Positions 24,144 to 43,570 of a stretch of 51,942 bases of DNA are shown here, one piece after another. The position numbers and the translations under genes were made by a program. The stretch comes from Oscillospiraceae bacterium (GTDB lineage: Bacteria; Bacillota; Clostridia; Oscillospirales; CAG-272), in assembly GCA_015064355.1 (NCBI GenBank), contig SVSJ01000017.1, forward strand, positions 1 through 51,942. Direction: 5' to 3'. The notes beneath the pieces are model-generated. The model searched no databases and had not been told where the DNA came from. It saw nothing but the letters and a program-made list of their open reading frames with translations. Position 1 is the first letter of the stretch, and each line of letters begins with the position of its first letter.

Positions 24144-26396
24144 TTATTCTTCAGCAGGTGCCTGGATGAGAGCGGGGAGCTCAACATCAAGCTTCCATTC
24201 GGATTCGATGATACCGATCTGGTTGAACTGTTCCCATGTGATCTCAAGAACTTCAGCGCCCTTGTTTACGATAAGATCTTCAAGGTCAACCTTGTTGCGT
24301 CTGCTGTTATAGTCAGATGTGTTGTCGGGGTCCTTACCGTCTTCGGGAATCGTTACAGTATCGGAGCAGAATGTATATACGTGGTCTTCAACGTAGTAAG
24401 GTCTGATACCCCAGTTGGAGAATGCGCGGCCGTACTTGTTGTAGTGGATCCAGTTGGAGTGGAGCTCGTCGCCGTAGGTTGTGCACCAGCCCCAAGGATC
24501 GTCGGGTGTGGTCTGGCTAAGGTCTTCAACGATCTTGGAAAGCTCGGGGTTAGCTTCAACCCAAACGGGGCTGTATACCCAGTCGGGATAACGGTCTCTT
24601 GCACCGGTGTAGCCTTCGTCAAGAGCGCGTGCATAGAACATTGCTACGCACTGAACGTACCACATTGTACAGTCGATGATAAGGTTGCCGTGAACCTTGA
24701 GAGAACGTCCGCCGTTCATAATAACGCCGTGACCCTTTACGGTTTCGATTACGTTACCGTATGCTTCAGCATAGCTGGAACCGCCGTCCCAGTAGATAGC
24801 AGCGGAACCCATATTATTGAGGCTTTCGATTTCGCCTGCCTGACCAACAGAACCAACGTGGTGGATGTAGTTGTATCTTGTTACGTTATCAACATAACCG
24901 GAGTTGCCGGTTGCGCCGATATCGTCGGATGTGCGGAGCACGTCGAAGATGTGGTTATACTCAAGCATTACGTATGCGCCTTCACCGCTGACTGCAGCTG
25001 CGTTGGATGAGTGCATGATGTTGTGAGCAACGTCAATGCGTACGCCTTCTACTGCGATACCGTCAGCGTAAGGATAGTGAGTGATACCCCAATCGTGGAT
25101 GTAGTTGTTTGTAACCTTACTGTTACCGGGGGTGAGGGTTTCGAGATCGCCGCTGTACAGGGTGATACCTGCCTGACTGAGGTTGTGGATGTGGTTTCCG
25201 TTGATAACAATGTTGTAACCGGTGAGAACGATTGCGTCTTCACCAACAACTGCGCTGATGTCACAGTTCTGGATGGTGAGATAATCAGCAGTACCTGTGA
25301 TACCGTTGCCGAGAGAAGATTCAAAGGTCAGGCCGTCGAGGGTGAGGTAATCAGCGTCCTCGAGAGTCATAAATCCGTTTGCCAGAGGCATGGAAATATG
25401 TGCGCCCTCAAAGTTTTCTGTGGGGTAGTAGTAGAGGACAGCGTTTTCATCAATGTAGTATTCGCCGGGAACATCAAGCTCTTCGGGGACGTTGTAGAAG
25501 AAGAATACGCCGCCTTCAACGGGAGCATAACCGCCATGGTAGGGAACGGACATGATCGCTTCGTCGGGGTCGAGGGAGAGGATCTTCATTCTGTCGGGTA
25601 CCCACAGAACAGCAAAGTGTGCCATAACGCGAGCTGTGGTATAGTCGTGCCAGGACATTACTCTGTCGAAGTTTTCTTCGCCGTATTCGATGTTCATGGT
25701 TTCTGCCTGGAACTCGCCGCCTTCGTTATCGGTGAGCATTGTGGGGTTGCCGTACTGGTCGATCATTGTGCTGCCGCCGCCGATATTATACCAGTCCTCG
25801 TTGGGGAAACGGCAGAGGGTCTGTCTTTCGCCTGCAACGGTGAGAACGGGAGCTTCGGTGATATAGTTGCGGCTGTCGATCAGGGCTCTGATCTGGTCCA
25901 CTGTGTAGCCGTACTTGGTCAGGTCGATCTGAACGATCTTGTCCTGAACGTCAGCGGGCATATACTGGAGAGCGTCTCCGGTAGCCTTGGCGAAATCAGC
26001 AGATGTAAGAGCAACACCGCCAACGATGGTCGCGCCCTTTTCACCGATAATGGTTACGGGGCAGGTTTCGGTGCCTGCGTTTGCAGCTGCTATTGCGATA
26101 GGTTCAGTAATGGTGTATGTACCGCTCTTTACGACAACATCGATGCCGATGTACTTTGTCTTATCAATACCGGCGATTGCATTTACTGCATCCTGAATTG
26201 TTGCGTATGTGTCAGCTTCGCCGCCTGCGGATACTGTGAGAGTAAGCTTTTCGGTGGGAGGTGTAACAGAACCCTGTGTGTCGGGTGTAACGGTGGTGTC
26301 CTGTGTTCCGTCGGGTGTGTCGGGAGTGTTGTCACACGCAACGATTGCGGGAATGATCATACACAGAACAAGTACGAGAGCAATGATTCTTTTCAT
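24144..26396 (-). CDS. Beta-helix lipoprotein 1 (GH141/GH120-like fold, tentative)
   Basis: A 750-residue lipoprotein: signal peptide with lipobox ending at Cys21 (AIVAC) and a Thr/Pro/Asp-rich linker to about 50. An N-terminal cap follows (YATIQDAVNAIAGIDKTKYI, VVVKSGTYTITEPI). Next is the ETCPVTIIGEKGATIVGGVAL block that in glycoside hydrolases of beta-helix fold builds the active-site cap, then RFPNEDWYNIG, a VPGEYYIDENAVLYYYPTE strand pair and parallel beta-helix coils (about 375-600; GNHIHNLSQAGI, YNHIFDVL, GNVIETVKG). The conserved tail has NSRRNKVDLEDLI and WEQFNQIG. No catalytic residues can be named with confidence. GGAGACAAAAGA precedes the ATG. Start 26396 is used because the longer frame has no signal. 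Confidence 0.85.
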   Translation of the reverse strand: MKRIIALVLVLCMIIPAIVACDNTPDTPDGTQDTTVTPDTQGSVTPPTEKLTLTVSAGGEADTYATIQDAVNAIAGIDKTKYIGIDVVVKSGTYTITEPIAIAAANAGTETCPVTIIGEKGATIVGGVALTSADFAKATGDALQYMPADVQDKIVQIDLTKYGYTVDQIRALIDSRNYITEAPVLTVAGERQTLCRFPNEDWYNIGGGSTMIDQYGNPTMLTDNEGGEFQAETMNIEYGEENFDRVMSWHDYTTARVMAHFAVLWVPDRMKILSLDPDEAIMSVPYHGGYAPVEGGVFFFYNVPEELDVPGEYYIDENAVLYYYPTENFEGAHISMPLANGFMTLEDADYLTLDGLTFESSLGNGITGTADYLTIQNCDISAVVGEDAIVLTGYNIVINGNHIHNLSQAGITLYSGDLETLTPGNSKVTNNYIHDWGITHYPYADGIAVEGVRIDVAHNIMHSSNAAAVSGEGAYVMLEYNHIFDVLRTSDDIGATGNSGYVDNVTRYNYIHHVGSVGQAGEIESLNNMGSAAIYWDGGSSYAEAYGNVIETVKGHGVIMNGGRSLKVHGNLIIDCTMWYVQCVAMFYARALDEGYTGARDRYPDWVYSPVWVEANPELSKIVEDLSQTTPDDPWGWCTTYGDELHSNWIHYNKYGRAFSNWGIRPYYVEDHVYTFCSDTVTIPEDGKDPDNTSDYNSRRNKVDLEDLIVNKGAEVLEITWEQFNQIGIIESEWKLDVELPALIQAPAEE

Positions 26397-26439
26397 TCTT
26401 TTGTCTCCTTTAGTTTTTGGCTTTTCTGCGTTACTAATT

Positions 26440-26468
26440 ATTATACAAGAAAAATCAAGGGATTTCAA
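26440..26468 (-). promoter_or_regulatory. Internal promoter of beta-helix lipoprotein gene 1
   Basis: On the minus strand: TTGAAA (26468-26463), a 17-bp spacer, TATAAT (26445-26440). This lets the third gene of the set be made independently of the two upstream ones. Confidence 0.75.
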
Positions 26469-26484
26469 TACCAATTTAGATATA

Positions 26485-28728
26485 TCAGTCAAGATTCCAT
26501 TCGTCCATTACGCGGCCGATCTTTGCGAATCTCTCAAGATCCATGTCAACAACGCCCTCTGCCTTAACGATAAGCTCTTCTATGGTGTATTTATCGCGGC
26601 GGCTGTTGTAGGTGGTCATGTTTTCTTCGGGTATGCCGTCAAGCCCGAAGTCGAAGTTCTCTTCACCGGAGAAGTGGAGAACCCAGTCCTCGATCCAATA
26701 AGGACGAGCACCCCAGTTGGAGAAGTCACGGACTGCCTTATTGAAGTAGATCCAGTTGGAGTGAACAGAGTTGCCGGCGGGAGCAGCCCAGCCGTATGGG
26801 TCGTCGGGTGTGGTTTTGGAGTAGTCGCCGATCACTTTGTCAAGATCGGGGTTAAACTCCTTCCAAAGATCGGTGTGAACGTAGTCGGGGTTGTTTCTCG
26901 GGTTGCCGGGATAGAACACGCCGTCCTTCCACATTTGCGCGTAAAGGATGGCGGTGGTCTGAACATACCATCTGTCGCAGTCAATGATGAGGTTGTTGCG
27001 AACAGTACATCCACGGCCGCCGTTGATGATGACGCCGTTACCGTTTACTGTTTCGATGACGTTACCGTAAGCTGTTGCGTAGCTTCCGCCTGCGTCCCAG
27101 TAGATTGCGGCAGATCCCATTGAGTTGAGTGCAGGTACTTCTGCTGCTGCACCAACTGCGCCAACGTCGTGGATATAGTTGTATCTGGTGATGTTTTCAC
27201 CGGAGCCGCTGTTGTCTACCGCGCCAATATCGTCAGATGTGCGGAGCAAGTCGTAAACATGGTTGTATTCGATGATAACCTTTGCTCCGCCGCAACTTGT
27301 AGCGGAAGCGTTGGAGGAGTGGATCTCGTTGTGGGAAATGGTCAGTCCGCATCCGCCGCCGGAGATCGCATCGGCGTAAGGATAGTGGAAGATACCCCAA
27401 TCGTGAATATGGTTGTTGTAGATGATTGAGTTACCTTCGCGGAGGGTTGCGCGGTCGCCTGTGCTTAATGAAATAACGCCAACGGAGCAATCGTGAAGAT
27501 GGTTGCCCATGATCTTGATATTGTCTCCGTTTACGGTGATCGCCTTGTCTCCGACTATTGAGCTGACCTCGCAATCCTTGATAGTGAGATAGTCGCATCC
27601 GCCGCCGGAAATACCATTAGCAAGAGATGAGGTAAAATGGATACGCTCGAGTGTAAGGTGATCCGTATCGTTCATATTAACAAGTCCTGCGGACAGGGGC
27701 ATTGAAATAACTGCGTCGCCGAAGCTTTCGTCGGGATAGTAGTAGAGGATTCCGTCTTCGTCTATGTAGTATTCACCGGGGACATCAAGCTCTTCGGGGA
27801 TGTTATACCAATAAAGGAGACCACCTTCGATGGGGGCATAGCCACCCTGGTAAGGGACGGTCATAATATCATCGTCAACCTCAAAGGACATAATGATGGT
27901 ATTGTCAGGCACCCACAGAACGTTGTAGTGACCTGCGGCGCGGGCGTACTCAAGGGAGTGCCAGGAGAGGGTGCGAGCCATATTCTCCTTACCGTACTCG
28001 ATGTTCATTGTAACTGCCTGGAATTCGCCGCCCTCGTTGTCGGTTACCATTGTGGGGTTGCCGTACTGGTCGATCATTGTGCTGCGGGCACCAATATTGA
28101 TCCAGTCCTCGTTGGGATAGCGAGCCAGGGTTTGGTATTCGCCGTTGACGATGAACGTAGGAGCAACTCTCTGGTAGTTTCTGTCGTTAAGGCGGTTGCG
28201 GATCTCATCAATGGAGAAGCCATATTTGGTAAGGTTGATCTGTACGATCTTGTCGGGGTTAGGCATATACTGTGCCGCAGAGCCTGTTGCGGGCTCAAAA
28301 TCAGCCGCTGTCAGCGCGATGCCGCCGACGATTACGGTTCCTTCTTCACCGATCAAACGAACGGGGCAGGATTCGGTGCCACCGTCCATTTTTTCAAGTT
28401 GGATGGGAGAGGTGATAGTATAAGTCCCTGCTTTGATCACGATATCGATGCCTGCGTAATCGGTTCTTTTGTACTTGCGAGAGGCGTAAACTGCTTGTTG
28501 GACTGTGCCGTAGGGCTTCTCTTCAGATCCGTCTGCATCGTTGTCATCTCCGGCGGGGGAGACGTATAATTTCAGAGTTTGGGGCTCGGTTATTGAAGGG
28601 ATTTCATTTGCAGGTGATTCTGTTTCTGGTGTGGTGTCCGTTTGGGGAGTGGAATGGTTATCCGGACAAGCCGTAAGTAGAGGAAGGAGCATCAGGAGTG
28701 CTAAGATAATTGAAAGTGATTTTTTCAT
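26485..28728 (-). CDS. Beta-helix lipoprotein 2
   Basis: A 747-residue paralogue of the preceding gene. Lipobox ends at Cys21 (LLTAC). Same order: YVSPAGDDNDADGSEEKPYGT-VQQAVYA cap, IDIVIKAGTYTITSPIQL, VGGIALTAADF, RYPNEDWINIG, EYYIDEDGILYYYPDE, then coils GNHLHDCSVGV, YNHVYDLLRTSDDIGAV and GNVIETVNGNGVIINGG. The tail has NSRRDKYTIEELI and VMDEWNLD. The ribosome-binding site GGAGG overlaps the stop codon region of the upstream gene, so translation is probably coupled. Exported glycan-active or glycan-binding protein by inference. Confidence 0.85.
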   Translation of the reverse strand: MKKSLSIILALLMLLPLLTACPDNHSTPQTDTTPETESPANEIPSITEPQTLKLYVSPAGDDNDADGSEEKPYGTVQQAVYASRKYKRTDYAGIDIVIKAGTYTITSPIQLEKMDGGTESCPVRLIGEEGTVIVGGIALTAADFEPATGSAAQYMPNPDKIVQINLTKYGFSIDEIRNRLNDRNYQRVAPTFIVNGEYQTLARYPNEDWINIGARSTMIDQYGNPTMVTDNEGGEFQAVTMNIEYGKENMARTLSWHSLEYARAAGHYNVLWVPDNTIIMSFEVDDDIMTVPYQGGYAPIEGGLLYWYNIPEELDVPGEYYIDEDGILYYYPDESFGDAVISMPLSAGLVNMNDTDHLTLERIHFTSSLANGISGGGCDYLTIKDCEVSSIVGDKAITVNGDNIKIMGNHLHDCSVGVISLSTGDRATLREGNSIIYNNHIHDWGIFHYPYADAISGGGCGLTISHNEIHSSNASATSCGGAKVIIEYNHVYDLLRTSDDIGAVDNSGSGENITRYNYIHDVGAVGAAAEVPALNSMGSAAIYWDAGGSYATAYGNVIETVNGNGVIINGGRGCTVRNNLIIDCDRWYVQTTAILYAQMWKDGVFYPGNPRNNPDYVHTDLWKEFNPDLDKVIGDYSKTTPDDPYGWAAPAGNSVHSNWIYFNKAVRDFSNWGARPYWIEDWVLHFSGEENFDFGLDGIPEENMTTYNSRRDKYTIEELIVKAEGVVDMDLERFAKIGRVMDEWNLD

Positions 28729-28730
28729 CG

Positions 28731-30299
28731 TTATTCCTCCATATTAGCGGTGATTTTGTCGAGATTCCATTCGGTCATTACGCGACCGATCTTGTTAAAG
28801 CGCTCTATGTCCAGATCAACCAGACCGGCTGATTCGGCCAGCAAGTCTTCGATTACGATCTTATTTCGCTTGCTGTTGTATTCGGTTATATTTTTGCTTC
28901 CGTGGTCGAATGGCCCTTCAAGCTCAACGGTTTCACCGGAGAAGCGGAAAACTGCCTCGTCAACGGAATAGGGGGCTGTTCCCCAGTTGGAGAATGCGCG
29001 GCCGTATCTGTTGAAATACACCAGGTTGTTCTCAAGTGTGATTCCCACGGGTGCTGACCAGGCGCGAGGGTCGGTGAATGTGGTTTGTGAAAGGTCGGTA
29101 ATAAGGCTTGCCAGATCCGGATTCGCTTCCTTCCACACGGGACTGTATATGTAATCGGGAACTTTAAGCTTGCCGTTGTTTCCCCACTTGAAGTGATCAA
29201 AATAATTGGAGGTGACGTGCCAGACGTACCAGTTGGAGCAGTCTATCAGGAGATTGTTGCGGATCGTTGCGTGGCGGCTGTCCAGTTTGATTCCGTTTCC
29301 GGATACCGCTTCGATGATGTTGCCGTAGATCTCATAGTAGCTTGCGGCGTCCTCGCATTTTATGGCGACGCTCTTGCTGTTATTTGTGGCGGGATTTGCC
29401 CGGTCGCCGATGTTTTGGATGTGGTTATAGCGGATGACATTGCCCACCTGCACGATACCTCTTGTGGATATTGCGCCGATTTCTGCGCCGTTTTGGGCTA
29501 TGTCGCTGATCTTGTTGTACTCGATTACGTTATACGCACCGTTGAATACGATAGCTGCGGAGGGAGAGCTTTGGATCTCGTTGTGGGAAACGGTGATGCC
29601 GACTCCGTATGCACCGATGCCGACGTCGGTTGTCTCGTCCCGGGTTCCGTAATCGTGGATCAGGTTGTTGTATATTTTTGAGTTTGACTTTGTCAGGGTT
29701 TTCATATCCCCGGAGCTTACAAAAACTGCGCTGCCGCTGCAATCGTGAATGTGGTTGCCGGTGATCGTTATGTTGCTGCCCACTGCTTTAAGCGCATATT
29801 CGCCTGAAATATTGGCGATTTCACAGTCTAATAATGCGAAATTATCTGCCGAAACAACAATACCGTTGCCGAGGGAGCCGTTCAGCTTCAGGTTTTTAAG
29901 GGTAATGCCGTCGCAGTAGATTTCAAACAAGCCGGTTGATGCCTGACCGTTTATGGTTACGCTGCCTTCGCCCAAAAATCTGATGGGAGGGTAATCTTCG
30001 ATCTTTTTAATTACGATGGAAGTGTCAAGGGTGTACGTTCCTTCTCCAATCAGAATATCAATAGTTGAGTATTTGTCTCCACCAAGAAGAAATGCAGATT
30101 TTACAGCTTCGCTAATGGTGGCAAAGGGCTTTTCTGCCGTTCCGTCTGCTGTGCTGTCGTCTCCTGCTTGGGATACCGCGAGGGTAATATGAGCTTTTTG
30201 CGGCTCCTCATTTACAGGCTCGTCGGGTATATTATTGCAGGATGCAAAAAGCTGGATAAGCATAATCACTAAAAGAACTATCGCGAGAGCTTTTTTCAT
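28731..30299 (-). CDS. Beta-helix lipoprotein 3 (short form)
   Basis: A 522-residue paralogue. Lipobox ends at Cys21 (LFASC). It has the same cap (AVSQAGDDSTADGTAEKPFAT) and coils (GNHIHDCSGSAVF, YNKISDIAQNGAEIGAI, GNIIEAVSGNGI) and the tail YNSKRNKIVIEDLL and VMTEWNLD. It lacks the central stretch of more than 200 residues holding RYPNEDW and the YYIDE/YYYPE strands, passing straight from GEGSVTINGQ to the coil region. That missing part contains the usual cap insert, so this copy may bind rather than cleave. The start at 30299 has GAGGAG 8 bp away; a GTG three codons earlier overlaps that site. First gene of the three-gene set, with a 2-bp gap to the next. Confidence 0.85.
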   Translation of the reverse strand: MKKALAIVLLVIMLIQLFASCNNIPDEPVNEEPQKAHITLAVSQAGDDSTADGTAEKPFATISEAVKSAFLLGGDKYSTIDILIGEGTYTLDTSIVIKKIEDYPPIRFLGEGSVTINGQASTGLFEIYCDGITLKNLKLNGSLGNGIVVSADNFALLDCEIANISGEYALKAVGSNITITGNHIHDCSGSAVFVSSGDMKTLTKSNSKIYNNLIHDYGTRDETTDVGIGAYGVGITVSHNEIQSSPSAAIVFNGAYNVIEYNKISDIAQNGAEIGAISTRGIVQVGNVIRYNHIQNIGDRANPATNNSKSVAIKCEDAASYYEIYGNIIEAVSGNGIKLDSRHATIRNNLLIDCSNWYVWHVTSNYFDHFKWGNNGKLKVPDYIYSPVWKEANPDLASLITDLSQTTFTDPRAWSAPVGITLENNLVYFNRYGRAFSNWGTAPYSVDEAVFRFSGETVELEGPFDHGSKNITEYNSKRNKIVIEDLLAESAGLVDLDIERFNKIGRVMTEWNLDKITANMEE

Positions 30300-30333
30300 A
30301 ACGGTCACTCCTCGATTAAATATGTCTGAATAT

Positions 30334-30339
30334 ATTATA
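30334..30339 (-). promoter_or_regulatory. -10 element before beta-helix lipoprotein gene 3
   Basis: TATAAT on the minus strand (30339-30334), about 35 bp before the start codon. No convincing -35 hexamer at 16-18 bp; only TTACTT is near. Confidence 0.5.
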
Positions 30340-30386
30340 CATTTCCGCCAGGAAAAAGTAAAGTACTTTTGTAGTTACTTTTTTAC

Positions 30387-30427: not shown

Positions 30428-32389
30428 TTATTTTTTTACGATGATAACAGCACCGGTGTTTGAGGGGAGGGTAACGGTAAATCCACCCTCGTCTGCTTTT
30501 GCTGTGCTTTCCCGGCTGACGGAAATGATATCCGCAAACTTGAAGTCCTCGCCAAGAGTGATGGTTGCTGTCTGTTCCTTAGGACAGTGATTGAGCACGT
30601 TGATAACACGCTCGTTCTCGGAGATAATATGCTCGGTTACGCCGATTGAGGGGTTCTTACATTCAGCGATCTTTGCGGGATTCTTGATGCCAAGCATTTC
30701 GTACAGCTTGTAGAGAGAGTGACAGAGGACGTAGGGAACCTGCTTGCCGTCTACCATTGCACCGGGGGTCTTTGACGCGATGGTTTCGATAGGTGCGTTT
30801 AAGAAGTAAACCTTACCCTTACCGTAATTGTTTACGGTGAAGAAGGGGTTGCCGTTCTGGTCTTTGATAAGCACTTCTGCGCCGACGCTTTCAAGAACGT
30901 GGCTGTACGGAGGTCTCAGAGTGATGTTTTCTCCGTCAAGCTGGATTTTAACCTCGCCGCCCTCACTTGCGCTTTGGTTGCGAGTGATGAGGTACAGGCC
31001 TGTAATATCCTTGAAGTGTGTCAGCACACCGTTTGAGATGGAGATATACAGGGTTGCGCCGTTATATACTCTCTCAAGGATGGTATCCATAGCTCTCTTT
31101 GTAATAGCGTGGTTGCTGGATACGCAGGGCATAAGATACACGTCGGATTCAGGAATCTCCTCGTTATACCAGGTGAATTCCACGTCAAGACCTGCTTCCT
31201 TTGCCAGAACGAAGGTGCCGTATGCGACGGGCCACTGTTCCTGGCCGGAGGTGAGTACGCAAACTGCGTCTTTCAGTCTTTCGGGGAGCTTTTCATATGG
31301 GAAGCTGTCAACAAACTTGCGGAAAGCTGAGAATTCTGTTACCACAGGTTTCTTTGCACCGCCGAATGTGAATATACCAAGCTCGCGCTCAACAGGGTCC
31401 CAGTCGTAGGGAGTATTTGTAAGCTCGTCCTGATCGAATGCACACCACCAGCAGAAGCCGCGGAGGTCGTGAGCCCAAGTGGAGAACATGGATGCGCGGA
31501 GATAGTCTCCTGCAACCTCGTCGCTTGAGATCATCGGACCGAGAGTGCCGCCTTCTTCAATGAAGCAAGGTTTTTTGCCCATTGTACCGAAGTAAACGGA
31601 CTCTGCTGTTGCGTGAAGAATGGGCTTCATTGTATTGAGGGGGTCTGTGTTGCAATACGGAGTGAACATGGGGTAGGGGTGGGTGCAGAGGATGTCGAGG
31701 ATCTCGCTCTGATCAGCCATGGACCAAGGGTGTCTGCCCTCGGGCTGGAGACCGTGCATACCGGATACTACGGGGTGAGTTCTGTCCTCGGCGCGAACTG
31801 TATTTGTGATAACAGATGCCCAAACGAATGCGTCGTCTTTATCGGCGTCTCCAAGGCAGTTGCACTCGTTACCAAGGTCCCATGCTCCGATGGCGGGGTG
31901 ATCCTTGAAACGGCGAACCATGTAACGCACGAAGCGGATCTCCCACTTCATTACGCCGTGATCCTTGAGAGGCTGACGGCCGATTAGAGATTCGGGCACG
32001 AAGGTGCGGCCGCTCATCCAACCGGTGATAAGGCCGACGATCAGCTTGAGACCGTACTTTTCCGCGATGTCGCAGAATGTAGCAAAGCGGTCTGCCATAA
32101 CCTGGTCAACGCCGCACTTGCCGGCTTCGGTAAAGGGGAAGGGTTCTTCGCCGTTACGGTATTCGTTTGCAATGGAGCCGCCGCTCTGGTGGAGACGGAG
32201 GGGCTGGAAATCAGGCCAAAGGGGGAACACGCGGAGAACCTCGATTCCGGCTTCGCTGAGCTTTTTAAGGTCGCTGTCAACTGTTGCTTCGTCCCAGTTG
32301 CGCCACATGAACATACCTGCGTGGGATGCCCAGTAGTTTACGCCCACGAAGAATTTGCCGCTTTCAAATAAAACTTGATCTTTTTTCAT
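30428..32389 (-). CDS. GH5-like cytoplasmic glycoside hydrolase
   Basis: A 653-residue protein with no signal peptide. The N-terminal (beta/alpha)8 barrel begins VGVNYWASHAGMFMWRNWD. The acid/base glutamate is E175 in WDLGNECN, and the probable nucleophile is E278 or E279 in CFIEEGGTLG, the clan A arrangement of cellulase/mannanase-like enzymes. A C-terminal part (from about 350) has a Rossmann-like glutamine-amidotransferase/trimerisation-type region (VCVLTSGQEQWPVAY, MPCVSSNHAI) and a small beta domain. Substrate unknown; being intracellular it should act on imported oligosaccharides. Weak AAGGAA precedes the ATG. It lies 196 bp downstream of the TIG/beta-helix gene, with element copy B between. 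Confidence 0.85.
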   Translation of the reverse strand: MKKDQVLFESGKFFVGVNYWASHAGMFMWRNWDEATVDSDLKKLSEAGIEVLRVFPLWPDFQPLRLHQSGGSIANEYRNGEEPFPFTEAGKCGVDQVMADRFATFCDIAEKYGLKLIVGLITGWMSGRTFVPESLIGRQPLKDHGVMKWEIRFVRYMVRRFKDHPAIGAWDLGNECNCLGDADKDDAFVWASVITNTVRAEDRTHPVVSGMHGLQPEGRHPWSMADQSEILDILCTHPYPMFTPYCNTDPLNTMKPILHATAESVYFGTMGKKPCFIEEGGTLGPMISSDEVAGDYLRASMFSTWAHDLRGFCWWCAFDQDELTNTPYDWDPVERELGIFTFGGAKKPVVTEFSAFRKFVDSFPYEKLPERLKDAVCVLTSGQEQWPVAYGTFVLAKEAGLDVEFTWYNEEIPESDVYLMPCVSSNHAITKRAMDTILERVYNGATLYISISNGVLTHFKDITGLYLITRNQSASEGGEVKIQLDGENITLRPPYSHVLESVGAEVLIKDQNGNPFFTVNNYGKGKVYFLNAPIETIASKTPGAMVDGKQVPYVLCHSLYKLYEMLGIKNPAKIAECKNPSIGVTEHIISENERVINVLNHCPKEQTATITLGEDFKFADIISVSRESTAKADEGGFTVTLPSNTGAVIIVKK

Positions 32390-34787: not shown

Positions 34788-36011
34788 TTATTCGCCGTAG
34801 TACTTGCCGAGCCACTCGGAGAGATATACAGCACGGTCTTCAGCCATGGACTTGTTAGCTGCAATACCGATACCGATGGACATTGCGCCTGCTCTGGTGT
34901 CAGCCATCTGGTGGAGGGGATCGCTGTCAAAGCCGCGGAAGAGGTTGTTGCGCAGCGCCGTGTCGGAGCCGCCGTGACCACCGGGAAGAGGCTTCTTGTT
35001 GTAGTGGTTGTAGTTGAATTCTTCGCCCTGACGGTTGTAGATCTTCATGTTGTCCTTGCCGAATGCTGTGTCAGCTTCGAGACGACCCTTTGTACCGTTG
35101 AACACGATTTTCATGCATTCGTAGGGAGAGTGAGCGGTAAGGGAGTAGCTCATTACAGTTCCCTTGTCATATGTAACGTTAACGCTCATTGTATCTTCGA
35201 TGTCGATCTCTTCGGAGAATACGCACTTGTCGCGGAAGTATCCGTCAACGTCCTCGCATTCAAGGTACAACTTCTTCTGATTGCCGTTTTCCACGGTGTT
35301 GATATCAACGAAGAATTCGCACTTATTCTTGTATGGGCAGGTGAGGCATCTTTCGCTTCTTTCTTCACGGGTAGGACCGTAGAACTTTCTTGTACCGAAG
35401 GCGTTTACCTTAACGGGTTCCTGTTCGAGGAACCAGTTTACAAGGTCGAAGTGGTGAGTAGACTTGTGGATAATGAGAGAACCGGAGTTCTTTCTTTCTC
35501 TGTGCCAGCGTCTGAAGTAGTCAGCGCCGTGAGAGCAGTCGAGAAGCCACTCGAAATGAACGGAAAGCACGTCTCCGATAACACCGGACTTGAGCATTTC
35601 TTTGATACGAACATAGAAGGGGAAGAAGCGGCAGTTGAAGGTTACTGTAACCTTGTGACCGGTGCGGCGCTCTGCTTCGATAATGTCAGAGCACATTTTA
35701 TCATCAGTTGTCATAGGCTTTTCGGAGATAACATCGCAGCCGAACTCAAGCGCCTTGATGATGTATTCAGCATGGTCGCAGTCGCGAGTTGTAACAACAA
35801 CTACGTCGGGCTTCTGTTCGTTCATCATTTTATCGAAATCGTCGTATGCGGGGATCTCGCGTCCTGCAAATTCACTTGCGAGACGAGCGCGCTTGATGTT
35901 CTTGTCGCAAACTGCAACCAGATCCACGCAATCTGCGTATTCCTTAACCATAGGTACTATGTAGGACAGTGTACCGCGGTTACCTGTTCCTACTACAACG
36001 TATTTTTTCAT
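34788..36011 (-). CDS. Gfo/Idh/MocA family NAD(P)-dependent oxidoreductase
   Basis: A 407-residue cytoplasmic dehydrogenase. The N-terminal Rossmann motif is VVGTGNRGTLS (residues 4-14), then the EKPMTTD lysine motif characteristic of the family near 97-103. The C-terminal half contains the HKSTHHFDLVNWFL histidine motif, then a four-cysteine CLTCPYKNKCEFF segment. It should oxidise or reduce a sugar or sugar-derived alcohol. Start 36011 is chosen for AAAGGAG. It opens the group oxidoreductase - TIG/beta-helix (51-bp gap) - GH5-like. Confidence 0.9.
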   Translation of the reverse strand: MKKYVVVGTGNRGTLSYIVPMVKEYADCVDLVAVCDKNIKRARLASEFAGREIPAYDDFDKMMNEQKPDVVVVTTRDCDHAEYIIKALEFGCDVISEKPMTTDDKMCSDIIEAERRTGHKVTVTFNCRFFPFYVRIKEMLKSGVIGDVLSVHFEWLLDCSHGADYFRRWHRERKNSGSLIIHKSTHHFDLVNWFLEQEPVKVNAFGTRKFYGPTREERSERCLTCPYKNKCEFFVDINTVENGNQKKLYLECEDVDGYFRDKCVFSEEIDIEDTMSVNVTYDKGTVMSYSLTAHSPYECMKIVFNGTKGRLEADTAFGKDNMKIYNRQGEEFNYNHYNKKPLPGGHGGSDTALRNNLFRGFDSDPLHQMADTRAGAMSIGIGIAANKSMAEDRAVYLSEWLGKYYGE

Positions 36012-36051
36012 AATTGTTTCTCCTTTGAGGAAAATATTTTTATACACAGTA

Positions 36052-36139: not shown

Positions 36140-38500
36140 TTATTTGTTTGTGTGGTTCTTTTCGAAGGATGTAACCTTTTCGGGAATCTCAATATCGTGG
36201 TTCCATTCGGACTCAACAATGCCGATTGTCTCAAACTGTTCCCAGGTGATCTCGATAACTCCTGCTGCGGTTTCTGTGATGAGCTCCTTCAGATCGTAGC
36301 CCTTGCGCTTGCCGGAATAGGAGGACATATTGGAGTTTGAAGTGTGGATCTTTTCAAAGGGAACGTCAATGGCACCCTCTTCGGCATATCTCCAAACGTA
36401 AGTTTCAACCTTATAGGGTGCTACGCCCCAGTTGGTGAATGCGCGGAAGCCGGAGTTATAGTGTACCCAGTTGTTCTTTGCTTCAACAAATGCCGGTGTT
36501 GCAAATACCATAGGGTCGTAGGGGTCGTTCTCGGGGGATACGTCGATGATCAGCTCTGCGACCTCAGGGTTTACAGCCTTGAACGCGTCGGAATAGTAGA
36601 AGCTGTGTCTCGGGTACGGGCCATGATCAAGATACTTGCCGTTTTCGTCGAAGCTGTTGTCGAATCCAAAGTGGTTCAGCGCTACGTAGTTACCGGAGCA
36701 GTTAACGATAAGATTGCCTGTGAACACGTTTCTGCGTCCGCCGTTTGATACGTAACCGTCGCCGTCGATATTGGCAATAACATTACCGTAGGTGGTGAAG
36801 TAAGATGCCATATTATCGTAGTAGATACCGGGGGCACCCATTACGAGAATATCGGGATTCTTTGTCTTGGAAAGTTCCATAAGCTCAGGTGAGCCAACGT
36901 CGTGGATGTAGTTGTATCTTACGATGATGTTTGCATTTTCCTTAAGACCGTCGCCGGAGATAGCACCGCAGTCCTCGATCTCGCGGAGAATATCAAACAC
37001 GTGGTTGTATTCGATTGTTACATTGATACCCTGTCCAACGTGGATACCCTTGGAGCCGGAGTTGTGGCAGGTGTTGTGGGAAATGGTGATGCCGATACCG
37101 GTTACTGTAACAGCGTATGCTACTGTGTCGGTGCGGTCCCATTCGTGCATATAGTTGTTGGAAATGAGGGTCTGGTTCTTGTAATCTTCAGCCTTGTACT
37201 TGTCGCCGCTGTCTATGTTGATGGCACTTGAGCCGATGTCGTAGATGTGGTTGCCGCTTATGGTCAAGTAGAGACCGTTGCCGGAGATACCGTTGTTTCG
37301 TATCGCGGAGATGGTACAGTCGATCACGCCGATATGGTCAGCACCTGCGAAATTTACGCCGCTTCCCATAGAGGAGGTGATGTCAAGATTTTTAATAGTG
37401 ATGTAAGAGGAGCCTTCAAAGCGGAAGATATCCTTGGAAACAGGCAGGGTGAATACGGCGGAATCAAATTCCTCTGTGGGATAGTAGTAGAGGATAGCGT
37501 TGGTGTCGATATAGTATTCACCGGGGATAGTCAGCTCTTCGGGAATATTATAGAAATACACAAGGCCGCCGGGAATAGGATCGTATCCTACGGTGTTAGC
37601 GGTAAAGGTGGGGGTAGCGGTGTCAAATTTTGCAACAGGTCCGAGGGTGTCTGCCCACAGGAAACGAAGATGTCCATGGAAGAATCTTATAGAATCAGAT
37701 GTCCAGGACTGTACTCTGTCGAAATGCTCTTTGCCGTAGTTAACGAGAGTTGCTGCTGCACGGTATTCTTCGTCGACGCTGGAATCCCAATCCTCGTGTG
37801 CGGTTTCGTTGCCGTTTGAGTCAAGCCAATGGCCGTCATCAATAACGATCCATGTATTGTCGGGGTACTGGCAGATGGTCTGTCTAACTCCGTTTGCTGT
37901 GAGGAAGGGGTGAGAGGAGTAATAGCGTCCGTTTTCCATGTACTTTGCTATATCTTCGGGGGTAAAACCGAATTTGCCAAGGTCGATCTGAACGATCTTG
38001 TCAGGTTCAGGGAAATACTTGGTCGCTGTGCCTGTTGCGGGAGCAAAATCTGCGGCAGAGAATGCAACGCCGCCAACGATTGTAACCCCTTCTTCACCGA
38101 GATAAGTGATAGGGCAGTCCTTTGTACCGTTGTCCTCGGCTGTGAATACGATGGGTTCTGTGATAGAATAAGTGCCTGCTTTGATGATCACGTTGATCCC
38201 GTCGAATTCAGACTTATCAAGAGTGCGGATAGCGTCGCGAGCGGTTGTGATCGTTCCAAAGGGGTTCTTCTCAGTACCGTTGGCGTCGGATTTACCCTTC
38301 TCGGAAACGTAAACTGTGAGGATGCCGTCCTCAAGTTTGCCGATAGAGGGTCCTTCGTCCTCGTCTGCTTTGAACATCATTCTGATAAGACGAACAAGGT
38401 TGAGGGTTTTTGTGAATGATGCAGAGGGAGCTGCGGATACGGATACTACCGTGCCGAGCATCATACAAATAGTGAGTATAAGTGCGACTGTTCTTTTCAT
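36140..38500 (-). CDS. Secreted beta-helix protein 4
   Basis: A 786-residue paralogue with an ordinary signal peptide (VVSVSAAPSAS) rather than a lipobox. After a basic/acidic linker (about 30-60) come VYVSEKGKSDANGTEKNPFGT, VIIKAGTYSITEPIVF, VGGVAFSAADF, QYPDNTWIVID and YYIDTNAILYYYPTE. Coils include GNHIYDIGSSAIN, YNHVFDILREIEDCGAI and GNVIANIDGDGYVSNGG, with the tail SGKRKGYDLKELI and WEQFETIG. The last roughly 160 bp, including the terminator, are nearly identical to those of gene 6, pointing to recent duplication or gene conversion. Exported; substrate unknown. Confidence 0.85.
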   Translation of the reverse strand: MKRTVALILTICMMLGTVVSVSAAPSASFTKTLNLVRLIRMMFKADEDEGPSIGKLEDGILTVYVSEKGKSDANGTEKNPFGTITTARDAIRTLDKSEFDGINVIIKAGTYSITEPIVFTAEDNGTKDCPITYLGEEGVTIVGGVAFSAADFAPATGTATKYFPEPDKIVQIDLGKFGFTPEDIAKYMENGRYYSSHPFLTANGVRQTICQYPDNTWIVIDDGHWLDSNGNETAHEDWDSSVDEEYRAAATLVNYGKEHFDRVQSWTSDSIRFFHGHLRFLWADTLGPVAKFDTATPTFTANTVGYDPIPGGLVYFYNIPEELTIPGEYYIDTNAILYYYPTEEFDSAVFTLPVSKDIFRFEGSSYITIKNLDITSSMGSGVNFAGADHIGVIDCTISAIRNNGISGNGLYLTISGNHIYDIGSSAINIDSGDKYKAEDYKNQTLISNNYMHEWDRTDTVAYAVTVTGIGITISHNTCHNSGSKGIHVGQGINVTIEYNHVFDILREIEDCGAISGDGLKENANIIVRYNYIHDVGSPELMELSKTKNPDILVMGAPGIYYDNMASYFTTYGNVIANIDGDGYVSNGGRRNVFTGNLIVNCSGNYVALNHFGFDNSFDENGKYLDHGPYPRHSFYYSDAFKAVNPEVAELIIDVSPENDPYDPMVFATPAFVEAKNNWVHYNSGFRAFTNWGVAPYKVETYVWRYAEEGAIDVPFEKIHTSNSNMSSYSGKRKGYDLKELITETAAGVIEITWEQFETIGIVESEWNHDIEIPEKVTSFEKNHTNK

Positions 38501-38519
38501 GAGCTTTCTCCTTAAAAAG

Positions 38520-38549
38520 ATTTCTATGCTTTCATTATATCATAGAAAT
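38520..38549 (-). promoter_or_regulatory. Promoter -10 inside a 9-bp inverted repeat, beta-helix gene 4
   Basis: ATTTCTATG (38520-38528) and CATAGAAAT (38541-38549) are perfect inverted arms. TATAAT on the minus strand (38539-38534) lies in the 12-bp loop. The -35 is weak (TTATCA/TTTATC). The symmetry fits a repressor site covering the -10. Confidence 0.6.
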
Positions 38550-38616
38550 TATGTGTGATAAATGGAAGATTTCTACTTTTATATGAATAATTTTGAATAT
38601 TTCGTGATTTGACAAA

Positions 38617-38640
38617 AAAGAGACTCGGTCGAGTCTCTTT
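38617..38640 (-). terminator. Terminator of beta-helix gene 5
   Basis: Perfect stem AAAGAGACTCG/CGAGTCTCTTT (GT loop) with A-rich upstream giving the T-run on the minus strand. Confidence 0.9.
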
Positions 38641-38657
38641 TATTTTGTTTGGTTGAG

Positions 38658-41006
38658 TTATTTTACTTCGTAGCCCTTTTCAAAGATTATGGTCTTCTCG
38701 GGGATCTCTACATCGTGCGGCCAATCTTCAAGAACTACGCCGATCGTCTCGAACTGTTCCCAAGTGATTGCGATAACGCCGGATGCAGTTTCGGTGATAA
38801 GCTTTTTAATATCAACTGCTTCACGTCTGCTGTTGTACTGAGAAACGTTTTCGTTTGCACCGCGGATCTGATCCTTGGGGAAGTCGATCTCATCAGCATT
38901 GGAATATCTCCAAACAGCAGGGTCGATGTAGTAAGGAGTCATACCCCAGTTGGAGTAGAGACGGATACCCTTGTTAAAGTGACACCAGTTATCCTGGATC
39001 TTAACGAATGCGGGAGCAAGCCATACCATAGGGTCATAGGGGTCAGCGCCTGCCATTGTAAGAACGAGAGTAGCGGGTTCGGGGTTGATTGCCTTGAACG
39101 CATCGGTATATACATAATCTGCGAAAGTGGTCTTTTTCTTGGACTTGTAGTTGCCGTTTTCGTCAAAGTATGTGTCGAGATAGCCGTAACCTGCAGCATC
39201 GATATAAGTCTGTGCACAGTCTACGAACAGGTTGCCGTAGAGTGCATTCTGACGACCTGCATTAAGGAGAACGCCGTTGCCGTAGATACCTGCAACCACG
39301 TTACCGGTTGAGGTGTAGTAAGATGCCATACCGTCGTAGTAGATAGCTGCGGAGGGGAAGCACTTGAAGTCGGGGTTAACTGCCTTGATAGCCTTTGTGA
39401 TCTCAACAGCGCCGATGTCGTGGATGTAGTTATACTGAACGTTGATGTTAGCGTTGTCCTTGCCGTCGCCGGAAACAGCACCAACGTCGTCGGTGAAGTT
39501 AAGGATATCGAATACGTGGTTGTATTCCATGGTGATGTTAACGCCACCCTTAATATGGGGACCCTTGAAGTTAGCATCTGTAAATGTATTATGGTCAACA
39601 AGAATGCCAACGCCGCCAACAGTAGCACCGTAACCGTATGCGCTGGTTACTGACCACTGACGAACGTAGTTGTTGTAGATGCGGCAGTTACCGTCTGTAA
39701 CAGTAGCCTTGTCACCTGCCATTACGTCAATAGCGGATGCGCCGATGTCGTGGATGTAGTTGTTCTGGATCGTCAAATCAAAGTTAATATCCTTGAAAAT
39801 GATCGCGTTGTTCTTAATAGAAGAGATTTCACAGTTCTGAATGCTGATGCCGGTTGTGTTTTTACCGGAAATAGCATTACCTGCAGAAGATGTCAGCTTA
39901 AGACCGTCGAAGGTGATATAGGATACACCGTCAAGAGTAACAAGTTCCTTGGAAACGGGCAGAGAAAGGGTTGCAGTATTGAATACATCGGTGGGGTAGT
40001 AGTAAAGGATACCGTCATTGTCGAAATAGTATTCGCCGGGCATATCAAGTTCTTCGGGAATGTTATAGAAGTAGAAGATACCGCCCTTGTCGGCACCATA
40101 ACCGCCGTTGAACTTTACGTTCATCTTGTCACTTGTCTTGTCAAATTCAAGAACGTGAGAGTCATCAGGGCACCACAAAACGTTCCAACGAGCAATTACG
40201 AAGATTGTATCGTCCTTTGACCAGGATGAAACTCTTTCGAAATACTCATCCCCGTATTCGATAACGTAGTGTGAAAGGTTGGTGGCATTAGTGAACTCGG
40301 TAATATGGTTACCGTTTTCGTCAATATTCAGACCGCCTTCAATATGGATGAATCCTTCGTTGGGGAAACGTACGAGAGTCTGACGCTCACCGTTTACAGA
40401 GAGGAATGATGAATCTGCAAGGAGGTGAGAGTGAGCTTTCCACTTAGCGATATCGTCGGTTGTGATACCAAGCTTTGTTACGTCGATCTGAACGATCTTG
40501 TCTTTTGCTTCGGCAGGGAAGTATTTTGTTGCGCTGCCTGTTGCGGGAGCGAAGTCCTTAGCGGAGAGAGCAACACCGCCGACAACTACAGCACCCTTTT
40601 CACCGAGGTAGGTGATAGGGCAGTCTTCCGTACCGCTGTCTTCATCTGTGAATACGATGGGTTCAGTAATGGAATATGTGCCTGCTTTAACGAGAACTGT
40701 GATACCGTCAAAGTCGGACTTGTCAAGATCACGGATTGCATCGCGAGCGGCTGTGATGGTTCCGAAGGGGTTCTTCTCAGTACCGTCAGCACCGGACTTG
40801 CCCTTTGCGGAAACGTAAACTGTGAGGATGCCGTCCTCAAGTTCTCCTACTGTGGGAGCTTCTTCTTCGTCCTTCTGGAACAGAGTTCTGATAAGACGAA
40901 CCAGATTAAGGGTTCTTGTGAATGATGCAGAGGGAGCTGCGGATACGGATACTACCATACCAAGCGCCATGCAAAGCACAAGAACGAGTGCGATTATTCT
41001 TTTCAT
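38658..41006 (-). CDS. Secreted beta-helix protein 5
   Basis: A 782-residue paralogue with signal peptide (MVVSVSAAPSAS). Block order as in gene 4: VYVSAKGKSGADGTEKNPFGT, VLVKAGTYSITEPIVF, VGGVALSAKDF, RFPNEGFIHIEG, YYFDNDGILYYYPTD. Coils include NNYIHDIGASAID, YNHVFDILNFTDDVGAV and GNVVAGIYGNGVLLNAG, and the tail is NSRREAVDIKKLI and WEQFETIG. It differs most from genes 4 and 6 in the middle. AAGGAG-type site (CAGGAGAAAGCTC) precedes the ATG. Its own promoter and terminator make it a single-gene transcript. Confidence 0.85.
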   Translation of the reverse strand: MKRIIALVLVLCMALGMVVSVSAAPSASFTRTLNLVRLIRTLFQKDEEEAPTVGELEDGILTVYVSAKGKSGADGTEKNPFGTITAARDAIRDLDKSDFDGITVLVKAGTYSITEPIVFTDEDSGTEDCPITYLGEKGAVVVGGVALSAKDFAPATGSATKYFPAEAKDKIVQIDVTKLGITTDDIAKWKAHSHLLADSSFLSVNGERQTLVRFPNEGFIHIEGGLNIDENGNHITEFTNATNLSHYVIEYGDEYFERVSSWSKDDTIFVIARWNVLWCPDDSHVLEFDKTSDKMNVKFNGGYGADKGGIFYFYNIPEELDMPGEYYFDNDGILYYYPTDVFNTATLSLPVSKELVTLDGVSYITFDGLKLTSSAGNAISGKNTTGISIQNCEISSIKNNAIIFKDINFDLTIQNNYIHDIGASAIDVMAGDKATVTDGNCRIYNNYVRQWSVTSAYGYGATVGGVGILVDHNTFTDANFKGPHIKGGVNITMEYNHVFDILNFTDDVGAVSGDGKDNANINVQYNYIHDIGAVEITKAIKAVNPDFKCFPSAAIYYDGMASYYTSTGNVVAGIYGNGVLLNAGRQNALYGNLFVDCAQTYIDAAGYGYLDTYFDENGNYKSKKKTTFADYVYTDAFKAINPEPATLVLTMAGADPYDPMVWLAPAFVKIQDNWCHFNKGIRLYSNWGMTPYYIDPAVWRYSNADEIDFPKDQIRGANENVSQYNSRREAVDIKKLITETASGVIAITWEQFETIGVVLEDWPHDVEIPEKTIIFEKGYEVK

Positions 41007-41043
41007 GAGCTTTCTCCTGTATTAAATAAAAATGGGATAAAAT

Positions 41044-41073
41044 ATTATACCACATTACAGGGGAGAGGCGCAA
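41044..41073 (-). promoter_or_regulatory. Promoter of beta-helix gene 5
   Basis: On the minus strand: TTGCGC (41073-41068), an 18-bp spacer, TATAAT (41049-41044) preceded by TGG (extended -10). Confidence 0.6.
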
Positions 41074-41176
41074 TATGTTTTTTGGACGCAGTTTTTACTA
41101 TTTTGTTAATTGTTACGGTGTATATGTGTAATATGCTGTGAAAATTGCGGCGGATTTGTGACTGTTGACTAAGCAA

Positions 41177-41204
41177 AAAAAGAGACTCGGTCGAGCCTCT
41201 TTTT
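41177..41204 (-). terminator. Terminator of beta-helix gene 6
   Basis: GAGACTCGGTCGAGCCTC hairpin, identical to the one after gene 4, just past the stop codon at 41210. Confidence 0.88.
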
Positions 41205-41209
41205 CGGGT

Positions 41210-43570
41210 TTATTTGTTTGTGTGGTTCTTTTCGAAGGATGTAACCTTTTCGGGAATCTCAATATCGTGGTTCCATTCGGACTCAACTATACCGATTGTC
41301 TCAAACTGATCCCAAGTGATCTCGATAACTCCTGCGGCTGTTTCGGTTATGAGCTCCTTCAGATCGTAGCCCTTGCGCTTGCCGGAATAGGTGGACATAT
41401 TTGCATTTGAGGTGTGAGTGCCGTCATATGCGTCGATGGCACCCGCTTCTGCGAACTTCCAAACGTATTTTTCAATAAAATACGGGGAAATGCCCCAGTT
41501 GGAGTATGCGCGGTAGCCGGAGTTGTAGTGTACCCAGTTGTTCTTGGAAACAATGAATGCGGGCGCGGAGAATACCAGAGGGTCATTTGTGTCTGTATCA
41601 GCGTTAACCTCAATTATGAGCTTGGCAACTTCAGGGTTTTCTGCTTTGAATGCATCGGAGTAGTAGAAACCGTGTCTGGGGAAGGTGTTTGGTATATACT
41701 TTCCGTTATCGTCAAATCCCTCTCCATACAGAGCCTGTCCAAGCATTACGTAATCTCGGGAGCAGTTGACAAAGAGGTTACCGGTGCACTTGTTATGGCG
41801 GCCGCCGTTAGAAACGAAACCGTTACCGTCGATATTTGCGACAACATTTCCGTATGTATTAACGTAGCTTGCCATCATATCATAATAGATACCGGAGCCA
41901 CCCATTTCAAGAATATCGGGATTTTTAGTTTTGGAAAGCTCCATAAGCTCGGGAGAACCGATATCATGAACGTAGTTGTATCTTACGATAATGTTTGCGT
42001 TTTCTTTGAGACCATCGCAGGAGATTGCGCCGCAGTCTTCAACTTCGCGTAGAATATCGAATATGTGGTTGTATTCAACTACAACGTTAATACCCTGAGC
42101 AACGTGAATACCCTTTGTTCCGGAGTCATGGCATGTGTTGTGGGAAATTGAGATCCCGATACCCTCGGCGGTAATGGCGTATGATATTGCTGTAGTAAGG
42201 TCCCAGCTTCTGATATAGTTATTATATATAGTTGCCTTGTTCTGATAGTCGGAGGCAACGTACTTATCACCACTCTTTACCTTGATTGCGTTGTCGCCAA
42301 TATCGTGGATGTAGTTGCCGCTGATATTCATATAAAGCCCGTTGCCGGCGATACCGTTTTCACCTGCTGCGGAAATAGTGCAGTCGACAATGTTGAGGTG
42401 ATCCGCACCGTTTAAGTCAACCGCGTTGTGCATGCTGGAGGTAAGGTCGAGATTTTTGAGTGTGATGTAGTCTGCGTTGTCAAGCTTGATAATGCTGTCG
42501 GCTGCAGTAACTGTCAGTTGTGATGTGGCAAAATCTTCTGAGGGATAGTAATAGAGAATTGCGTTTTCATCAATAAAGTACTCTCCGGGAGCGTCGAGGG
42601 CTTCTGGAAAATTGTAGAGACGCACAAGACCGCCGCATACGGGGTAGTACCCGATAGCGGAAGTGGTGAACGTGTCACTTTCGGTACTGATCTTATCTAC
42701 AAAGCCGTATGTGCCTGCCCAAAGGAAGCGGAGATGACTGCGCAAATACTTGGTATAAGGAGAAGTGAAGGTGCTGATATCCTCGAAGTATTCTTCACCG
42801 TAATCCACAAGTGTGGAAACCGCAAGGTGTTCTTCGCTTTTGCTGTCAGTCCATAATTCATATACGAGTTCATTGCCGTTTTCATCCAACCAGCAACCGC
42901 CGTCAATAACTGCCCATGTGTCGTTGGGGTACTGACAAAGAGTTTGTCGTTCCTTATTTGACGCAAGGAACGGATGGAAGGCAAAGTAGTAATTGCTCTT
43001 CATGTATTCAGAAATATCGTCTGATGAGATGCCGAACTTTTTAAGGTCGGATTCTACGATCTTTCCTTTAGCATCCGCCGGGAAATATTCAGATGCACTG
43101 CTTGTGGCAGGAGAAAAATCCTTTGCAGAAAGGGAAATGCCGCCAACAACGGTGGTTCCGTCTTCGCCGAGGTAGGTGATGGGGCAATCTTCTGTGCCGC
43201 TGTCTTCAGCTGTCAGAACGATAGGTTCTGTGATCGTATAGGTTCCTGATTTGACAAGAACAGTGATTCCATCAAATTCAGATTTGTCAAGTGTGCGAAT
43301 GGCATCGCGAGCAGCTGTGATCGTTCCAAAGGGGTTCTTCTCAGTACCGTTGGCGTCGGATTTACCCTTCTCGGAAACGTAAACTGTGAGGATGCCGTCC
43401 TCAAGCTTTCCGATAGAGGGTCCTTCGTCCTCGTCTTTCTGGAACAGAGTTCTGATAAGACGAACCAGATTAAGGGTTCTTGTGAATGATGCAGAGGGAG
43501 CTGCGGAAACGGAAACTACCGTGCCGAGCATCATACAAATAGTGAGTATAAGTGCGACTGTTCTTTTCAT
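41210..43570 (-). CDS. Secreted beta-helix protein 6
   Basis: A 786-residue protein, closest to gene 4: the signal peptide region and the C-terminal WNHDIEIPEKVTSFEKNHTNK segment are the same in both. Blocks: VYVSEKGKSDANGTEKNPFGT, VLVKSGTYTITEPIVL, VGGISLSAKDF, QYPNDTWAVIDGG, EYFIDENAILYYYPSE. Coils: GNYIHDIGDNAIK, YNHIFDILREVEDCGAI, GNVVANIDGNGFVSNGG; tail SGKRKGYDLKELI. The middle diverges from gene 4, so similarity is patchy along the gene. Exported; function unknown beyond the fold. Confidence 0.85.
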   Translation of the reverse strand: MKRTVALILTICMMLGTVVSVSAAPSASFTRTLNLVRLIRTLFQKDEDEGPSIGKLEDGILTVYVSEKGKSDANGTEKNPFGTITAARDAIRTLDKSEFDGITVLVKSGTYTITEPIVLTAEDSGTEDCPITYLGEDGTTVVGGISLSAKDFSPATSSASEYFPADAKGKIVESDLKKFGISSDDISEYMKSNYYFAFHPFLASNKERQTLCQYPNDTWAVIDGGCWLDENGNELVYELWTDSKSEEHLAVSTLVDYGEEYFEDISTFTSPYTKYLRSHLRFLWAGTYGFVDKISTESDTFTTSAIGYYPVCGGLVRLYNFPEALDAPGEYFIDENAILYYYPSEDFATSQLTVTAADSIIKLDNADYITLKNLDLTSSMHNAVDLNGADHLNIVDCTISAAGENGIAGNGLYMNISGNYIHDIGDNAIKVKSGDKYVASDYQNKATIYNNYIRSWDLTTAISYAITAEGIGISISHNTCHDSGTKGIHVAQGINVVVEYNHIFDILREVEDCGAISCDGLKENANIIVRYNYVHDIGSPELMELSKTKNPDILEMGGSGIYYDMMASYVNTYGNVVANIDGNGFVSNGGRHNKCTGNLFVNCSRDYVMLGQALYGEGFDDNGKYIPNTFPRHGFYYSDAFKAENPEVAKLIIEVNADTDTNDPLVFSAPAFIVSKNNWVHYNSGYRAYSNWGISPYFIEKYVWKFAEAGAIDAYDGTHTSNANMSTYSGKRKGYDLKELITETAAGVIEITWDQFETIGIVESEWNHDIEIPEKVTSFEKNHTNK

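Follow-up and report, generated by a model that had tools for sequence, protein, structure and literature searches.

On balance, and judging from sequence, we favor a reading in which several exported glycosidases resembling family GH141 would act on complex glycans, a cytoplasmic gene set would process the N-glycan core, and one member of the exported family would be an altered copy. The window analyzed (51,942 nucleotides) is the entire contig C11 of a 2.17-Mb genome in 57 contigs, estimated to be 79.9% complete. Under the favored reading, P0001, P0002, P0004, P0005, and P0006 would be exported, surface-held GH141-like glycosidases whose most likely role is extracellular cleavage of complex glycans, probably fucose-bearing, by means of a pair of aspartates. 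Oligosaccharides would then enter through an ABC importer, an orthologue of which lies on another contig. A cytoplasmic finishing set, comprising a candidate GH5_18-like β-mannosidase, NagA, a NagB-like protein, an esterase, a MocA-type oxidoreductase, and a TIG/beta-helix protein, would fit the Man-β1,4-GlcNAc of the N-glycan core, as suggested by the gene content of sister genomes.

The exported paralogues and their family

Six homologous exported proteins, P0001–P0006, are encoded on the minus strand in window positions 24144–43570.

24144..26396, minus strand: P0001, GH141-like exported lipoprotein, 750 aa, catalytic Asp pair present
26485..28728, minus strand: P0002, GH141-like exported lipoprotein, 747 aa, D500/D545 present
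28731..30299, minus strand: P0003, GH141-like lipoprotein, inserted beta-sandwich region missing, both catalytic positions occupied by Glu (frame open from a GTG at 30308; Met at 30299)
36140..38500, minus strand: P0004, GH141-like, signal peptide and conserved leader, D510/D562
38658..41006, minus strand: P0005, GH141-like, signal peptide and leader, catalytic Asp pair present
41210..43570, minus strand: P0006, GH141-like, signal peptide and leader, catalytic Asp pair present

The initial annotation had described these genes as six exported beta-helix paralogues, three of them lipoproteins and three with plain signal peptides, and both descriptions held. Identity to P0001 was 38–56% for P0002–P0006, five of the six proteins were full length (P0003 being the exception), and the beta-helix Pfam search that the annotation had recommended placed all six above the cut-off of Beta_helix (PF13229). 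Leaders, judged by eye, were of the Cys-containing lipoprotein type in P0001–P0003 and plain signal peptides in P0004–P0006. The central blocks VGGxxL, YPNxxW, and YYxDE...YYYP, which had been ascribed to all six, were found in five but not in P0003, from which the residues equivalent to 136–343 of P0002 are missing.

For assignment to a family, profiles and single sequences were compared with the PDB. A profile of the 16 copies in this genome matched 9rx2 (E = 2.3e-29; cap, final portion of the insert, and helix) and the GH141 enzyme BT_1002 (5mqp, 4.9e-19; cap and end of the insert), with no other chain at E ≤ 0.01. A profile of 10 distant homologues, drawn from Bacteroidota, Verrucomicrobiota, Actinomycetota, Armatimonadota, and Paenibacillus, gave 4e-52 for 9rx2 and 3.2e-30 for 5mqp, and the two profiles aligned with each other at a probability of 100% (E = 2.3e-89). 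Single-protein searches, run for P0002 and P0006, also reached 5mqp (2.5e-9 and 3.6e-9, respectively), mainly through the N-terminal cap. The best profile match, 9rx2, is entered as "Parallel beta-helix repeat protein," a name that states no function. In five of the six paralogues, an insert between cap and helix corresponded in place and size to BT_1002 109–295, as judged by sequence alignment only. With GH141, as known from BT_1002 of Bacteroides thetaiotaomicron, Xyn141E, and the Wf141 endo-fucanases, the window family has in common the order of N-terminal cap, an insert so placed, and beta-helix, and the catalytic Asp pair. The resemblance to GH141 that had been proposed thus stands in sequence, domain order, and the Asp pair, and by these alignments the five full-length window proteins are GH141-like, with a predicted right-handed parallel beta-helix. 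Ndeh 2017 is said to be the founding paper of this family. A resemblance to GH120, proposed alongside, survived as a remote one: the distant-homologue profile matched the β-xylosidase 3vst, which we take to be a GH120 member, in the N-terminal cap region (E = 3.6e-6; an alginate lyase also matched, at 0.0035), but the profile of the genome's own 16 copies gave no match to 3vst at E ≤ 0.01.

Copy number sets this genome apart from known GH141 systems. A search with P0002 returned 17 rows, P0003 being split over two, and so 16 family members on seven contigs: six on C11, three on C44, two each on C24 and C37, and one each on C29, C50, and C27. C37 ends in a leader fragment that overlaps, by 70 identical bases, the truncated gene with which C44 begins, so that the two are probably one gene. 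By comparison with these 16 copies in a genome about 80% complete, excerpts of the published accounts give a maximum of two GH141 genes per genome in a review and at least four in W. fucanilytica (PMC10154630 / PMC12786026). Further differences from known GH141 proteins are the SLH or leader N termini described below and the absence of both insert and Asp pair from P0003. Among the literature matches listed, no title dealt with many-copy GH141 in ruminal Clostridia, and none linked GH141 with an N-glycan locus. The ten members outside the window lie on six other contigs, where the neighbors recognizable by eye are mostly housekeeping-like. On C24, a GHL6-family glycoside-hydrolase-like protein (L018:3440-5506) adjoins a GH141-like gene, and a weak GH29-family match on contig C8 of sister genome G005 suggests a neighbor similar to it. 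A phage origin was considered and rejected, as none of the 37 viral-contig stretches that fitted a pattern was confirmed to be related.

Within the genus, P0004 found matches in 21 of 25 genomes, this one included. Many close copies were present in five of them, with 18 rows in this genome (G000), 21 in G005, 13 in G019, 10 in G024, and 9 in G012, counts that include fragments and some distant rows; G001 gave ten distant matches. The close copies of the five expanded genomes formed one branch of 47 in an 89-row tree, made by a quick method and with some long branches. G005, G012, G019, and G024 appear to be SIG667, RGIG3705, RUG11111, and RUG12901, respectively. The record title of RGIG3705 gives goat rumen as its source, and RUG presumably stands for rumen. 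The source bacterium is related to ruminant-gut Clostridia.

The catalytic aspartates and the altered copy P0003

Excerpts of published work report that D523 and D564 of BT_1002 are essential (PMC10154630, PMC12786026) and that Xyn141E keeps the catalytic Asp pair (PMC5593877). In profile alignments these residues aligned with two aspartates of the family, D500/D545 of P0002 and D510/D562 of P0004; PDB chain numbers and the papers' numbers differ by five, which was taken as a tag offset. Because the alignment stretch over D523/D564 is weak by itself (7.9 bits), the assignment draws on domain order, spacing, and agreement with 9rx2. An alignment of 61 proteins was then available for counting, made up of the six window proteins and 55 of 76 loci (the 21 excluded were in many cases cut or frame-broken). 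Asp occupied the first site in 58 of the 61 and the second in 60, and the pair was present in five of the six window proteins and 15 of the 16 in the genome. The initial annotation had seen no recognized catalytic signature in the family, which is true of P0003 alone. Exceptions among the 61 were P0003, with Glu at both sites, and L034 and L044, whose first site is Asn and Glu, respectively; in L035, outside this alignment, the first site is likewise Asn, and with L034, L035, and L044 all changed there, loss at the first site happened more than once.

These residues bear on whether the proteins work as enzymes at all. Structural surface proteins or adhesins, in which the fold is kept and catalysis is unimportant, would accord with the SLH cell-wall anchors found in nine of ten relatives tested and with the changed first catalytic residue of P0003 and three relatives. 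The catalytic pair is nevertheless among the most conserved positions of the family, from Clostridia to Bacteroidota, Actinomycetota, and Armatimonadota, and we consider an adhesin role very improbable. We judge with high confidence that the paralogues are enzymes rather than scaffold.

P0003 departs from its siblings in two respects, the inserted domain and the catalytic residues. By way of the own-genome profile alignment, its gap corresponds approximately to BT_1002 109–292; the ancillary domain of BT_1002 is given as 109–295 in excerpts of the published work (PMC10154630 / PMC12786026), so that the borders of the gap and of the inserted beta-sandwich agree to within a few residues. In the part that P0003 retains, 31 positions are conserved in 90% or more of the remaining 60 proteins, and P0003 keeps 28 of them; the three changed positions include both catalytic Asp, for which the probability by chance is 0.0065. 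Its closest relative, the SIG667 orthologue L031:4920-7157, is a full-length protein that has both Asp, and the two were joined with 99% support in the 89-row tree.

The end branch of P0003 in that tree measured 0.84 as compared with 0.25 for the orthologue, and this, together with the missing region and the replacement of the two catalytic Asp, is what would be expected if P0003 were simply a pseudogene in decay and not a copy retained for binding or regulation. The reading frame, however, runs uninterrupted for 525 codons, in which an approximate neutral calculation predicts about 25 stops, and the 28 retained positions likewise speak against decay, which we regard as unlikely for P0003. From its sequence P0003 is better described as a retained, probably non-hydrolytic copy, with changed chemistry using Glu as a possibility. 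Its frame would be held open by selection, and the protein most likely binds glycan or carries out an altered chemistry, rather than acting as an ordinary GH141 enzyme.

Sugar-processing genes in the window and in sister genomes

Between and around the paralogues lie the following features.

17124-18665, plus strand: galactarate/altronate dehydratase-family gene, near P0001 with one large gene between
30428..32389, minus strand: candidate GH5_18-like cytoplasmic β-mannosidase (PDB matches; no signal peptide seen)
32586..34736, minus strand: TIG/beta-helix protein, Pect-lyase_RHGA_epim and Beta_helix by Pfam, no signal peptide seen
34788..36047, minus strand: Gfo/Idh/MocA oxidoreductase, 93% identical in SIG667, no visible signal peptide
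38614..38641, no strand assigned: terminator-like hairpin between P0005 and P0004
43691..43718, no strand assigned: the same terminator-like hairpin, between nagA and P0006
43722..44903, minus strand: nagA, N-acetylglucosamine-6-phosphate deacetylase, TIGR00221 above cut-off (listed frame extends to 45005; internal Met start assumed)
44905..45675, minus strand: nagB-like, glucosamine-6-phosphate deaminase family, under the NCBIfam equivalog cut-off
45745..46818, minus strand: esterase, alpha/beta hydrolase (Abhydrolase_7), adjoining the GH5_18-like gene in three sister genomes
47067-48575, 48770-50143, and 50282-51703, plus strand: three homologous exported proteins with proline-rich tails, homologues of which flank GH5_18-like genes in G012 and G024

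The MocA, TIG/beta-helix, GH5-like, nagA, nagB-like, and esterase genes all lie where the initial annotation had placed them, and its statement that a transporter is missing was confirmed for the window proteins scanned (24144–51703). GH38 is also absent from the window. The GH5_18-like protein matched 7bob (1.2e-15; named "endo-beta-mannanase"), BlGH5_18 (7lr1, 2.8e-14), and the exo-β-1,4-mannosidase 6gvb (4.3e-7); the 7lr1 match spans residues 14–356, with both catalytic Glu aligned. For the TIG/beta-helix protein, no PDB sequence match was obtained at E ≤ 0.01, and the TIG-type N terminus called earlier had no Pfam match. Signal peptides were not visible in NagA, the NagB-like protein, or the esterase. 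A 28-mer common to upstream regions was rejected as an operator, as it is the terminator-like hairpin, a one-base variant of which lies upstream of P0005. Of the two exported proteins at 47067–51703 that were read among the three, both carry PATEA repeats and a C-terminal membrane anchor, and one of the three gave a weak CBM9 match. Adjoining the array on the plus strand (19182-24101) is a gene whose product, 1639 aa in length, combines a BlaR1/M56 membrane peptidase domain with very long additional sequence.

Much of this arrangement recurs in SIG667, where P0001 has the orthologue L023b (L023:7172-9778), P0002 the orthologue L023 (69%), and the MocA, TIG/beta-helix, and GH5_18-like proteins are 93, 77, and 83% identical, respectively. 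There, the segment spanning MocA through the P0003 orthologue is inverted, and the two lipoprotein genes are exchanged. Beside the P0003 orthologue, at a border of the inverted block, the stretch G005 C46:21388-21513 gives a short match to the C-terminal 42 residues of the GH5_18-like protein. One contig of G012 carries, in two facing groups, genes for a GH141-like SLH protein, MocA (83%), the TIG/beta-helix protein, NagB (82%), NagA (69%), an ABC importer, a GH38 mannosidase, the GH5_18-like protein, and the esterase, with two further genes among the set. In G024, the esterase, GH5_18-like, GH38, and importer genes follow in succession on one strand.

The grouping of GH38, GH5_18, and an ABC importer is published, in the excerpt available, as the N-glycan core locus of C. 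acnes (PMC6160142). G012 and G024 resemble the C. acnes / Bifidobacterium locus in having all three, so that an N-glycan core locus proper, with the three together, exists in these two genomes but not in the window. The window differs from it in lacking GH38 and the importer, in its several added GH141-like exported enzymes, and in a GH5_18-like protein of 653 aa that is only distantly similar to GH5_18 enzymes. The earlier designation as a polysaccharide utilization locus is plausible but too broad, as the cytoplasmic genes match an N-glycan-core set that in two sister genomes is accompanied by GH38 and the importer.

The GH5_18-like gene was found in all five genomes with close expansion and in none of three others tested; the five are related, so this co-occurrence does not amount to five independent events. 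Close relatives (57%) of the operon's GH38 occur in G007 and G022, both without the GH5_18-like gene, and this genome and SIG667 gave only distant matches, the best at 26–28% over a long stretch. Importer orthologues occur in the three tested genomes without the GH5_18-like gene as well as on C13 of this genome, outside the window. GH38 and importer therefore do not track the GH5_18-like gene. From these gene contents, N-glycan or a related glycoprotein glycan as the food is given a little less than an even chance.

With respect to fucose, Fucose_iso_C matches were strong in this genome, G005, G012, and G019 and weak in G024; the G005 protein lies above the cut-off of the L-fucose isomerase model, and the match in this genome is equally strong. 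GH29 matches exceeded the cut-off in four of the five expanded genomes. That at least one copy cleaves a fucose linkage is proposed tentatively, at roughly one chance in three. Known GH141 activities comprise fucosidase, xylanase, and endo-fucanase in the excerpted reports (PMC10154630, PMC12786026, PMC5593877), and with activities so different the substrate of the window proteins is not predictable.

The same reports describe GH141 enzymes acting on plant or algal polysaccharide, and the window proteins could accordingly be depolymerases of RG-II, xylan, or fucan, in which case nagA/nagB and the mannosidase-like gene would be unrelated genes nearby. The galactarate/altronate dehydratase-family gene, which in SIG667 is directly beside an orthologous lipoprotein gene, would suit such a diet, as would sulfatase-family matches in all five expanded genomes (a count that does not separate true sulfatases from other family members). 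Against it, the cytoplasmic genes are found together in sister genomes as well, and neither GH10 nor GH28 was matched in any of the five expanded genomes (66–80% complete); a xylan or pectin specialist was rejected on the latter count, in genomes that are incomplete. We judge plant or algal food to be rather unlikely, a possibility of about one in four, and retain the N-glycan-core reading of the cytoplasmic set.

N-terminal modules

The N-terminal module, either SLH or a conserved short leader, goes by species, as read from the sequences of 45 proteins of the close-copy branch. In the window species and SIG667, 31 proteins comprised 26 with the leader, five with a lipoprotein leader, and none with SLH, as compared with 12 SLH, two of another kind, and no leader among the 14 proteins of the other three species. 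SLH labels came from the Pfam test of the ten relatives mentioned above, with three more assigned by length and resemblance. P0001–P0006 gave no SLH match at E ≤ 0.1, and elsewhere in this genome there were 26. The body tree, made by a quick method, required a minimum of five switches between SLH and leader, one join behind that number (L044 with the C27 copy) being flagged as a long-branch join.

Over the first 45 codons, 75% of residues were identical among 12 leader-bearing paralogues, as compared with 39% in the bodies, whereas fourfold sites of the 12 genes (truncated C44 copy excluded) matched about equally, at 596 of 1302 in the leader and 3321 of 7753 in the body. Conserved residues with fourfold sites alike indicate selection on the protein, and gene conversion was rejected as the source of the leader similarity on the same comparison. 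The leader was not found convincingly on other proteins of this genome. A role as an amphipathic-helix anchor was also rejected, as the hydrophobic moment reached the top 5% of 2000 shuffles in none of nine leader stretches.

A bolder proposal, which we think improbable, is a surface enzyme consortium built from exchangeable N-terminal modules. The leader, a signal peptide plus about 20 residues under protein-level selection, would be a new sorting or docking tag, swapped with SLH in either direction in at least five paralogue lineages, and P0003 would be a GH141 pseudoenzyme trimmed to a bare beta-helix that binds glycan or presents it to active siblings.

In the excerpted literature, GH141 has few characterized members, with three activities among them (PMC10154630, PMC12786026, PMC5593877). 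The 16 diverged copies described here, some beside genes of the glycoprotein-glycan type, offer a panel for how this fold changes specificity, and P0003, with the inserted domain gone at its borders and both catalytic Asp replaced by Glu, is a natural experiment within it. The species-wide split between SLH and leader, in turn, makes a testable question of how secreted enzymes are retained on the surface of Gram-positive gut bacteria.
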